DNA of 64,000 bases from contig NZ_JADOTT010000002.1 in assembly GCF_016817355.1 (NCBI RefSeq), positions 242,354 to 306,353 of the forward strand. Reading direction: 5' to 3'. Position numbers and translations under genes: made by a program. How positions within the stretch are numbered: position 1 is the stretch's first letter; the number at the start of each line of letters is the position of its first letter. The notes under the pieces were generated by a model that was not told the origin of the DNA, did no database searches, and was given only the letters and a program-made list of their open reading frames with translations. This DNA is from Maricaulis parjimensis (lineage in GTDB: Bacteria > Pseudomonadota > Alphaproteobacteria > Caulobacterales > Maricaulaceae). Shown here one piece after another: positions 36,319-39,353 of this stretch.

Positions 36319-36881
36319 GTCGGCGCTTGCAAACTTCCCAGATAGGCCATCACGGCGAGCTCGATCGCAAGGATGGGCGCGGCGGCGGACAGCGCTGCGG
36401 TGATGGTCGGCAGGCCCAGGCTGACATAGGCCACCCGCCAGTGAACCAGCACCCGGATATAGGGATAGATGTTCAGGGCGAGGGCCGTGATGAAGGTCGG
36501 CAGGATTTGCGCCGTATAGGCCATCCAGACCGCAAACAGGTAGAAATAGAGCCAGAGCACGGCCCAATTGTGCACCACGATCCAGCGGACGAAGGCAGTG
36601 CGCGCACCGGTCACGAAACAGGCGGCCGCGGCAGCAACCGGGAAGACAAACCAGGACAGGGCCTGCACCACGAACTGGTCGAGATAGCTCATCGTGCCGC
36701 CGGCCCGGGTCGTGGCGGCCTGGATCAGCAGGATCATCGGGATGGCCGGGAGGATGGCCGCGAAGGAGCGCCAGAAGCCGCTGAGCGAGGTGTTGAACCC
36801 GTCTTCCCAGCCCGGGCGGAAGGCCAGCAGGCGAAAGCTCGCCCGGACGGCAACGAAACCCTCTGCAACCAGCCGGATCAT
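36315..36881 (-). CDS. Unrecognised membrane protein downstream of dapE
   Basis: A 188-residue hydrophobic protein with about five predicted helices (for example residues 38-57, 75-93, 103-125, 128-140 and 160-185). It begins [32 protein letters not shown] in fragments and has no recognisable motif. Its ATG overlaps the dapE stop (ATGA), so it is the third gene of a leftward operon with the SeqA-like gene and dapE. Function unknown; such genes are conserved next to dapE in some relatives as far as I recall, but that needs a search. Confidence 0.75.
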
Positions 36882-38050
36882 GCGGGCGTGTCCGTGAAAT
36901 AGCGGGTCAGGATGCGGGTGTAGATTTTCGTCAGGGTCTCGATATCGCTGACGGGCACGCGTTCATCGACCTGGTGCATGGTGGCCCCGACCAGGCCAAA
37001 CTCGGCGACCGGGCAATAGGCCTGGATGAAGCGCGCATCCGACGTTCCACCGCCCGTCGTCAGGGCGGGACGGCGTCCGGTTTCCGCTTCGATGGCATCC
37101 TGGAGCAGGGTGGTGAAATCGCCGGCCGGTGTCAGGAAGGCTTCGCCGGTGACATGGATGTCGGCTTTGACCTGACCATTGAAGCCCAGGGCGGTCTTGG
37201 CCACCTCATCCTCGATCCAATGGGTGAGTTCATCGCCCGTGTGCCGGATATTGAACCGGATATTGAAGCGGGCGGAGGCTTCGGCCGGGATCACATTCGT
37301 CGTCGGATTGCCGACATCCACCGAGGTGATCTCCAGATTGGAGGGCTGGAAGTGCGGAGCGCCCTCATCCAGCACGCGGGCATTGAGCCGCTCCAGCAGA
37401 CCCATCAGGCGCGGGATGGGGTTTTCGGCGCGTTCCGGATAAGCGACATGGCCCTGGCGTCCGGTCACGGTCAGCCGGCAATTCAGCGAGCCGCGTCGGC
37501 CGGACTTGATCGTGTCGCCCAGCGCATTCGGATTGGTCGGCTCGCCGACCAGGCAGTGGCTGAAGGTCTCGCCTTCCGCTTCCAGCGCCTTGAGCACGGC
37601 CTTGGTGCCGTTGATGGCCGGGCCTTCCTCATCGCCGGTGATCAGGAAGGCGATGGATCCGTCCGGTGTGCCGGCCTCGTCCAGGAAGCGGTGGACCGAG
37701 GCGATCATGGCCGCGATGGCGCCTTTCATGTCGGCGGCGCCGCGCCCCCACAGCATGCCGTCCTCGGCATGGGCGGCGAAGGGCGGTTGCTGCCAGTCGG
37801 CTTCCGTCCCGGGCGGGACCACATCGGTATGGCCGGCAAACAGGAAGCAGGGCTCTGCATTGCCCAGCCGGGCATAGAGATTGTCGACCTCGCCGAACGG
37901 ATAGCGTCGGCAGACAAATCCCATCGCTTCCAGCGCGGTCTGCACAACGCCCAGCGCCCCTTCATCCTTCGGCGTGATGGACGGGCGTTGGATCAGCGCC
38001 TGCGCAATCGGCAGGGGATTGGAGAGAGGGGCAATCACGTCAGAGCTCAA
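36878..38050 (-). CDS. dapE: Succinyl-diaminopimelate desuccinylase
   Basis: A 390-residue M20 metallopeptidase-family enzyme. Metal ligands are visible in [21 protein letters not shown] and ITGDEEGPA, and SGRRGSLNC and [11 protein letters not shown] match DapE rather than other M20 members. It makes LL-diaminopimelate for lysine and peptidoglycan. The start is probably TTG at 38050, with AAGGA seven bases upstream, overlapping the stop of the SeqA-like gene by 11 bases; a GTG at 38038 is an alternative. dapD is 4.3 kb to the right on the same strand. Confidence 0.93.
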
Positions 38051-38564
38051 CGATGAGGTCCTTGTCGTATTCCAGTCCGGCCAGGCGGCAGGCGGTCTTG
38101 ATGCGGGCGAGCTTCTGTTCGCGCGAGAGGTTCACATCGACATACCAGCCGTCGCAGAGTTTTTCAGCATGTTTGGTGAGTTGCGGCGAGCGGGGATAGA
38201 GCGCCTCGGGGCTGCGGGCCACAACGCGCCGGCGGCCCGTACCATCCTTCGACAGGATGTCCAGCAGGTCGGGCCTGGTTTTGGCCAGCCAGATCAGGGC
38301 CAGGCGATAGGCCGATTTCTGGCTCCCGGCGAAATATTCACGGTCATGCAGGCGGACCCGATAGCGTCCGGTCTGACGCCCGGCCGTCTCTTCCATGTCC
38401 AGCCAGTCGTGAGGGATGGGAGCAGAGGGCGGCGACGGGTCGGCGGGCAGGGGTGCATTGGCCAGGACGCGCCTCAGAATGTCCGTCTGGCTTTCGTCCA
38501 GCGACGTGCGATGGGCTTCCAAAGCCTTGTGCAAGCCGAGGTCCAGTTCGATCGTCGCGGGCAT
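38040..38564 (-). CDS. SeqA-like DNA-binding protein
   Basis: A 174-residue protein that aligns by eye with E. coli SeqA (181 residues) along its full length. Residues 4-34 ([15 protein letters not shown], then [12 protein letters not shown]) match the SeqA oligomerisation/ribbon-helix-helix N-terminus, where SeqA has TIEVDDELYSYIASH and GESASDILRRML. Residues 72-97 match the first helix of the SeqA DNA-binding domain, and G110-RRRV and W140-YVDVN145 match SeqA GRTRV and YWVITN, the loops that contact hemimethylated GATC. Asn150 of SeqA aligns with Asn145, but Asn152 aligns with Ser147. The leader ATG has GGAG about eight bases upstream. It is the first gene of the dapE operon. Confidence 0.65.
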
Positions 38565-38888
38565 CGTTTGTCTCCATTCACTTATAAGGAATATAAGTCA
38601 TCGCGGCTTCAGGTCAAGGCGTTGGGGGAGAAAGATGGGAAGTTGCGTAGAAAGTCAGTTTTGGTGCGTGCACTTCATATGTGACGCCGTGGCGGTCTAC
38701 GGGGTGACAACCGCGATGACTGGAGGCGTCGACTGATAAAATCCTTATAAGTAGATTCTCGCTGATCCCTGTTTCCATGTTGCAAGGTGGTTTCGGGGGA
38801 TCGCGACATCCGGTCTGGCGAGGCGGGTGTGCTCCGCCTATGTAGGGTGTCGAGATCGCACCCAATCACGCATCGGGGGATATGAGAG
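38565..38888. promoter_or_regulatory. 324-base divergent gap with two CTTATAAG palindromes
   Basis: This gap separates the SeqA-like gene (leftward) from the cupin gene (rightward). It has two copies of the palindrome CTTATAAG, at 38581-38588 and 38744-38751. The first is part of a wider dyad, ACTTATA-AGGAA-TATAAGT (38580-38598), 16 bases before the SeqA-like start codon and overlapping a possible -10 element read leftward. I see no gene in the gap. Confidence 0.5.
38580..38598. promoter_or_regulatory. Candidate operator at the SeqA-like gene promoter
   Basis: ACTTATA, spacer AGGAA, TATAAGT: a perfect 7+7 inverted repeat, with the inner palindrome CTTATAAG also repeated 163 bases away. Its place over the likely -10 region suits autoregulation by the ribbon-helix-helix protein encoded next to it. 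This is inference. Confidence 0.4.
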
Positions 38889-39353
38889 ATGAAAAAGTTT
38901 GCGGCCGGTGATGTCGAAGAATCGAACGGCACCAGCTATCCGCCGGAGTATGCGAAGGATGTGGCGGGCCGCCACTATCGGCGCCTGGGCGATGCGGCCG
39001 GCCTGGAACAGTTCGGCGTGAACCTGGTGCGTCTGGAACCGGGCGCCTGGTCCTCCCAGCGTCACTGGCACACGGATGAGGACGAGTTCGTCATCATCCA
39101 GTCCGGCGAAGCCGTTCTGGTCACCGAAGAGGGTGAGACCGTGATGCAGGCCGGCGATTTCGCCGGCTTCCCGGCCGGGGTCGAGGATGGCCACCATCTC
39201 ATCAACAAGTCCGAGGCGGACTGTGTCTTCCTGGTGGTCGGGGGACGGTCGGATTCAGACGCGTGCGACTATCCCGATATCGACCTGAAGGCCCTGCCGG
39301 GACGCTATTCGGGCGTGGGCGGGTTCACGCGCAAGGACGGAAGCCACTACTGA
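38889..39353 (+). CDS. Cupin-domain protein
   Basis: A 154-residue single cupin. The metal motif reads SSQRHWHTDEDEFVIIQSGE (first motif, two His and one Glu) and DGHHLINKS (second motif, His), with FPAGVEDGHH between. Similar proteins are annotated as sugar-nucleotide or aromatic-related cupins, but no substrate can be read from the sequence. The ATG has GAGAG directly upstream (GATATGAGAG). It is divergent from the SeqA-like gene and converges on the next gene with one base between stops. Confidence 0.85.
   Translation: MKKFAAGDVEESNGTSYPPEYAKDVAGRHYRRLGDAAGLEQFGVNLVRLEPGAWSSQRHWHTDEDEFVIIQSGEAVLVTEEGETVMQAGDFAGFPAGVEDGHHLINKSEADCVFLVVGGRSDSDACDYPDIDLKALPGRYSGVGGFTRKDGSHY

Follow-up and report, generated by a model that had tools for sequence, protein, structure and literature searches.

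SeqA of E. coli and other gammaproteobacteria is built from two domains, SeqA_N (PF17206) and SeqA (PF03925), which are joined by a linker; in E. coli it prevents newly replicated DNA from being replicated again. According to PMC6225831, R116, T117, R118, N150, and N152 contact GATC, and oligomerisation involves T18, I21, and A25. A review states, in the portion available, that alphaproteobacteria have no SeqA homologue, and suggests that its function could be taken over by some unknown protein (PMC6090056). In Caulobacter, CcrM methylation has been reported, again in the accessible part of the source, to be dispensable for the control of replication initiation (PMC3973325). No published description of an alphaproteobacterial SeqA homologue was found in the literature covered, which consists mostly of papers available without subscription.

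The window analysed here is the whole 64-kb stretch of Maricaulis parjimensis DNA from which the sequence above is taken, and the initial annotation had placed in it, by eye, a gene for a SeqA-like protein. Maricaulis is a marine genus. Judged by profile comparison and predicted structure, the gene product is a true but remote two-domain homologue of SeqA, which confirms that observation.

Gene and Locus

The open reading frame proposed at 38040-38564 is present and lies on the minus strand, which had not been specified before. The gene, the parts of its product, and its neighbours are as follows.

38040..38564, minus strand: seqA-like gene (ATG at 38564, TGA at 38042-38040; 174 aa; GC 0.64, GC3 0.78)
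38457..38564, minus strand: N-terminal SeqA_N-like oligomerisation domain, residues 1-36 (sequence and profile comparison)
38385..38456, minus strand: variable linker, approximately residues 37-60 (family alignment)
38043..38384, minus strand: C-terminal SeqA-fold domain, approximately residues 61-174 (AF2 models with Foldseek, hhalign)
38226..38237, minus strand: residues 110-113 (GRRR), corresponding to the R116-T117-R118 contact loop of E. coli SeqA (joint alignment and the accessible part of PMC6225831)
38112..38132, minus strand: residues 145-151 (NLSREQK), corresponding to the N150/N152/K156 loop (joint alignment)
36878..38050, minus strand: M20 peptidase-family gene, dapE according to the initial annotation (TTG start; overlaps the seqA-like gene at 38040-38050)
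38889..39353, plus strand: divergent cupin-domain gene, which borders the site on its other side (gene neighbourhood)

The overlapping downstream M20-peptidase gene fits the proposal of dapE as the operon partner, and the position beside dapE, not pgm, sets the gene apart from seqA. By eye, the overlap of the seqA-like stop with the TTG start of dapE is also seen in five more loci (L002, L003, L007, L008, and L009) and is indistinct in two (L010 and L011). In the gene-less genome G009, dapE adjoins the cupin gene with a short gap between the two. The linker is of very different length between relatives in the family alignment, and in the G013 copy (L008:1087-1902) it is expanded by repeats, giving a total of 272 residues vs 174 in the window protein.

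Homology to SeqA

With the single sequence, the N-terminal domain is matched marginally, both by phmmer against the PDB (SeqA, E 0.039) and by Pfam SeqA_N (E 0.063, 13 bits vs a cut-off of 23). At the profile level a SeqA_N oligomerisation domain is recognised. The family profile finds SeqA 3fmt in the PDB with E 0.0031, and the hhalign comparison of the N-domains with SeqA gives a probability of 96.7 and a score of 41.3, the maximum in 60 column shuffles being 12.8. With E values allowed up to 1, SeqA_N is listed for three of the eight family members, the best value being 6.3e-5, and the N-domain is 40% identical to that of E. coli SeqA over ~35 residues.

The C-terminal domain is reached by sequence through distant members of the family only. 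The window protein alone gives no hit in a PF03925 search, and the eight Maricaulis-type C-domains, compared with SeqA by hhalign, stay in one direction inside the range of 60 shuffles (probability 0.69, score 14.4, shuffle maximum 18.4; in the opposite direction, probability 13.9 and score 23.1). A set of 17 C-modules was assembled from the eight close relatives and nine more distant ones found by the family profile or tblastn. Against 21 gammaproteobacterial SeqA sequences, this set reaches a probability of 96.0, with E 4e-9 and a score of 53.3 (maximum in 60 shuffles 16.9; probability of the reversed control 0.17). A full-length profile comparison gives a probability of 95.1, with E 3.1e-8 over 173 columns. 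When E values up to 1 are allowed, four of the 17 C-modules are listed under PF03925, the best at 2.1e-6. In the PDB, the 17-row profile (hmmsearch) places SeqA first yet weakly, with E 0.013, the annexins being second with 0.16.

The predicted fold was compared for the full-length protein and for the C-domain. The full-length AF2 model has a mean pLDDT of 79 (56-69 in the N-domain blocks), and its top five Foldseek matches are SeqA chains with probabilities of 1.00-0.93, other folds reaching at most 0.25 among the matches listed. The structure 1lrr superposes on this model with an rmsd of 2.0 over 86 columns. The alignment of 3fmt covers both domains, with an rmsd of 20-22 that is large because the domain orientation differs. 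The C-domain model (pLDDT 88) has the same five SeqA chains on top, with probabilities of 1.00-0.87 and TM values of 0.46-0.61, followed by a match at 0.25. The Foldseek E-values are modest for both models (best 3e-3, none below 0.001), and the weight therefore rests on the uniqueness of the SeqA hit.

The initial annotation had suggested a SeqA profile search and a structure comparison. The latter came out in its favour, SeqA chains being the sole confident Foldseek matches of both models among the matches listed. The former gave a divided answer, as profiles detect the N-domain and, with 17 rows, the C-domain, while the single sequence yields the marginal SeqA_N match and nothing for PF03925. 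The claimed likeness over the full length thus stands for the N-domain by sequence and for the C-domain by fold and by the 17-row profile; the single-sequence match of the C-domain is not significant.

We have also considered that the resemblance arose by chance, without kinship to SeqA. Such a reading could draw on the marginal single-sequence E-values, on the C-domains of the eight close relatives, which alone fail to clearly reach SeqA by profile, and on the modest E-values of Foldseek. However, SeqA is the only confident fold, among the matches listed, for both models, the two domains stand in the correct order with a linker between them, and distant C-modules match PF03925. Chance resemblance is already largely refuted and can for practical purposes be set aside.

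Contact and Oligomerisation Residues

The window protein shares with SeqA the two domains and the linker, the predicted C-domain fold, and R118, N150, and K156, whereas its C-domain is ~15% identical and several functional residues differ. The initial annotation had aligned its GRRRV with GRTRV of E. coli. In the in-frame mapping, R116-T117-R118 correspond to G110-R111-R112, which places that alignment one residue off, while the pairing of N150 with N145 and of N152 with S147 is retained. Of the residues that touch GATC in SeqA, R118 and N150 are thus kept, while R116, T117, and N152 are replaced by Gly, Arg, and Ser, respectively.

Among the 17 C-modules, N150 is Asn in all and R118 is Arg or Lys in all. 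R116 is Arg in 13 of them, whereas L044, the window protein, and the two relatives closest to the latter have Gly at this position. At N152, 15 of the 17 have Ser, compared with Asn in 21/21 SeqA sequences. The ungapped alignment of the N-domains pairs T18, I21, and A25 with R19, L22, and Q26; the change of I21 to Leu is conservative, and the other two residues become Arg and Gln. The residue comparison indicates that the scaffold is preserved and that the base-reading loop and the filament contacts are altered.

Methylation Background

A CcrM-type background without Dam had been assumed for this gene, and the own genome (G000) bears it out. This genome has a single PF01555 match, a CcrM-type enzyme with a RAMA tail that we take, from its sequence, to be CcrM, and it has no PF02086 (Dam-type) match. 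Among the other carriers, PF02086 is matched once in G007 and twice in G018. Co-occurrence with a special methylase was considered and rejected: the own genome has two PF02384 matches, one of them strong, but this family is patchy (11/14 genomes, strong in few) and does not occur in all carriers.

One alternative is that the protein reads the CcrM mark. After replication, its C-domain would coat the new DNA at hemimethylated G-m6A-NTC and its N-domain would oligomerise, as in SeqA at GATC, the palindrome described below being merely autoregulatory. The SeqA fold with R118 and N150 kept is consistent with such a role, and so is a CcrM-type enzyme as the sole PF01555 match in a genome with no PF02086. 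In the window, GANTC is strongly avoided, being about fourfold rarer than expected (76 vs 308), while GATC shows no depletion (517 vs 446 expected). The review, in its accessible part, would allow an unknown alphaproteobacterial protein in this part (PMC6090056).

Several results, however, argue against this role. The upstream regions of the seqA-like gene at eight loci have no GANTC or GATC pattern in common, and three of the eight lack GANTC altogether. No copy of the gene was detected in 11 of the 19 Maricaulis genomes searched, and every one of these 11 has a PF01555 match. N152 is Ser in most C-modules, as described above. In Caulobacter, moreover, initiation control reportedly has no need of CcrM methylation (PMC3973325, accessible part).

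The chromosomal origin was considered as well. We take the PF03618 gene to be a neighbour of the alphaproteobacterial origin, and in 19-kb stretches at this gene, where the origin is only presumed, the density of GANTC is alike in five carriers and four non-carriers and reaches at most 3-4 sites per 400 bp. These stretches gave no DnaA box matching that of E. coli. Origin sequestration via GANTC clusters was tentatively rejected, carriers and non-carriers being alike near the presumed origin.

The sequestration or chromosome-organising role put forward by the initial annotation therefore finds no backing in shared upstream GANTC or GATC, in a carrier-specific density at the origin, or in the distribution of the gene over the genus. 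Reading of hemimethylated GANTC is possible, and the site patterns lend it no support; on balance we regard the CcrM-mark reading as rather unlikely. A wider version, in which SeqA_N-led readers of CcrM methylation exist in alphaproteobacteria in two forms (SeqA_N with a SeqA-fold domain and SeqA_N with RAMA) and the Maricaulis protein would be the missing sequestration factor of the class, binding hemimethylated GANTC after replication, appears more doubtful still.

Distribution and Origin

Within Maricaulis, 19 genomes including the own one were searched for the gene, and eight of them have a clear copy (G000, G007, G008, G011, G012, G013, G015, and G018). A ninth carrier, G030, belongs to another genus of the same family and has the seqA-like gene at dapE as well. 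In all, 11 of the 61 genomes searched gave a match, i.e., the nine carriers, G050 (C-module only), and G005. The match in G005 (L013) was discarded as spurious, being weak, with two internal stops and with no dapE within the 3.3 kb examined. The nearest named relative is Maricaulis alexandrii (84%). Profile searches gave matches in eight of 385 genomes of the class, seven of which, besides the own genome, have one domain or a fragment, and in 12 of 299 genomes of the order, six of the 12 across both domains.

Because the gene of G030 also lies at dapE, and because the identity among carriers declines in an order that largely follows the one seen for dapE, the distribution appears to be better suited by an old presence with repeated loss than by a recent gain. 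Recent import was rejected, as GC and GC3 agree with those of dapE. A mobile or phage gene was likewise rejected. The phage records contain no match at E up to 1, and peptide patterns gave no match in the viral contigs; the single plasmid match is weak and concerns the C-module alone. Nothing in the Foldseek viral library matched with confidence. Matches to DUF7208 / phrog_3315 were obtained with E 0.005-0.013. The window protein has no PADLOC hit, and a defence gene was discarded on this ground.

An ordinary gammaproteobacterial SeqA, imported and reading GATC, is very improbable. The N-domain identity to E. coli SeqA and the PF02086 matches of the carriers G007 and G018 would agree with import. 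The own genome, however, has no PF02086 match, on which ground a GATC reader was rejected in spite of the matches in these two carriers. The NCBIfam SeqA equivalog gives 14.6 bits vs a cut-off of 185, and PF03925 is above its cut-off in none of 41 genomes, the E. coli control being positive. In addition, the GC3 resembles that of the neighbouring gene, another genus has the same locus, and the order of identity among the carriers resembles that of dapE.

A Conserved Palindrome in the Promoter Region

Upstream of the gene, the following elements were found.

38590..38617, minus strand: predicted sigma-70-type promoter TTGACC-16-TATATT (1 found vs a mean of 0.2 in shuffles)
38580..38589, no strand: proximal palindrome, CCTTATAAGT in gene sense, directly 3' of the -10 hexamer
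38743..38752, no strand: distal palindrome, ACTTATAAGG in gene sense, 163 bp farther upstream

The promoter regions of eight of the nine carriers were compared, G007 being left out as its gene is split over two contigs. In 8/8 of these loci, CCTTATAAGG with at most one mismatch occurs within 400 bp upstream of the gene, with 13 sites in total, and the promoter region of the gene thus has a conserved operator-like site. In six of the eight loci, the distance of the proximal palindrome from the ATG is -24 to -30. The exceptions are L010, where it is at -100, and L008 (G013), whose single copy has one mismatch and is located at -393. Five of the eight regions have two palindromes, spaced 38-316 bp. 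The palindrome contains neither GANTC nor GATC.

The element is rare in the own genome. In the 64-kb window, CCTTATAAGG with at most one mismatch occurs only as the two promoter copies. Over its 3.35 Mb, the own genome has three copies of the core CTTATAAG, namely two at this locus and one within an acyltransferase gene, compared with 31 for the reversed control. In dinucleotide shuffles of the window, CTTATAAG is expected 0.03 times per 64 kb, equivalent to one or two copies if extrapolated to the genome, and two copies were reached in 0/100. The longer pattern TCCTTATAAGGA with up to two mismatches is unremarkable, as its two occurrences in the window are reached by 8/100 shuffles.

The promoter shows a conserved palindrome, not a GANTC or GATC pattern, and for this reason the upstream sequences suggest local autoregulation. 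We therefore favour, tentatively and at close to an even chance, the reading that this remote SeqA homologue is a dimeric, sequence-specific repressor of its own seqA-like/dapE operon. Its working parts would be the N-terminal SeqA_N dimerisation domain, the flexible linker, and the C-terminal SeqA-fold DNA-binding domain. Two linked C-domains would bind CCTTATAAGG just past the -10 element of their own promoter, with no need of a methyl mark there, and the second copy, where it is present 38-316 bp upstream, would be bound likewise. The oligomerising N-domain could bridge the paired palindromes, and dapE would be controlled together with the seqA-like gene, given the overlap of stop and start. 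No SeqA-type C-domain is known to us to recognise a palindrome of this kind.

Several observations speak against repression of its own operon by the protein. By eye, the side of the SeqA_N strand that points outward is acidic. Exact CCTTATAAGG occurs in 19 of 37 genomes, several of them gene-less (five copies in G019, three in G020, and two each in G003, G010, and G016), and the carriers G000, G007, and G013 have no exact copy. The positions of the palindrome in L008 and L010 and the unremarkable count of TCCTTATAAGGA also weigh against it. The eight Maricaulis carriers have 12 exact sites, of which six are upstream of the gene and one is elsewhere in G011. The other five belong to an intergenic stretch that G015 and G018 have next to a hydantoinase gene.

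That stretch lies between the hydantoinase gene and a fasciclin-domain gene (L140:6279-6437, L141:6518-6678, and L142:6734-6894) and is conserved in G015, G018, and the gene-less G016. It has three copies of CTTATAAG; a gap of 19-20 bp separates two of these, and the remaining one is ~130 bp off.

Another regulator could bind the palindrome instead, the SeqA-like protein being merely regulated through it and having a separate role, for example as a nucleoid or restriction-related factor. The palindromes of gene-less genomes, clustered in G016, and the fusion of a related C-module with HSDR_N in proteins of other alphaproteobacteria (L016 and L018) point in this direction. On the other hand, the palindrome accompanies the gene at the dapE locus in eight carriers and is absent from the sole gene-less dapE locus read, that of G009 (400 kb of this genome contain no CCTTATAAGG with at most one mismatch and 22 with two mismatches). 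The window protein also has no PADLOC hit, and we consider binding by another regulator unlikely.

Related Domain Architectures

The two halves of the protein recur in other combinations. Three alphaproteobacterial proteins (L020:1489-1905, L021:1486-1917, and L080:1492-1938) are, like the window protein, small and two-domain, with an N-domain that is 37-40% identical, but their C-terminal part resembles RAMA (PF18755) and not SeqA. The RAMA-like parts have E 3.7e-6 to 7.5e-6, below the cut-off, while SeqA_N of L080 is over the Pfam cut-off with E 4.5e-8. These proteins are candidate readers of adenine methylation. L019 resembles them by eye and has no Pfam hit.

Two further proteins, L016 (L016:1489-2601) and L018 (L018:1489-2589), have the C-module in common with the window protein (family profile E 2.5e-18 and 1.1e-16, respectively) and differ in the N-terminal part, which is a type I restriction R-subunit-like domain (HSDR_N, PF04313) that precedes the SeqA-fold C-module. 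L018 is just at the PF03925 cut-off. These proteins are possibly nucleases guided by methylated or particular DNA sites. In the order and the class, the C-module is also found behind N-terminal parts with no recognised domain (L012, L075, L077, L078, L079, and L017; Pfam scan of L012, L077, and L078). A C-module protein of a Variovorax megaplasmid (L044:5773-6375) has the SeqA-like spacing GRAYFAKSVEAL and an Asn-x-Asn loop.

Significance

The Maricaulis protein is, on the comparisons above, a two-domain counter-example to the statement, made in the accessible part of PMC6090056, that alphaproteobacteria have no SeqA. What is new here is the conserved palindrome, which provides a ready candidate operator at a known locus. 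The finding opens two questions, namely whether a SeqA fold may read CcrM marks and whether a SeqA fold may act as a plain operator-binding repressor; the former, if true, would be the greater discovery. The architectures described above tie the SeqA C-domain to restriction-type proteins and the N-domain to RAMA-like proteins, and this bears on the origins of SeqA.
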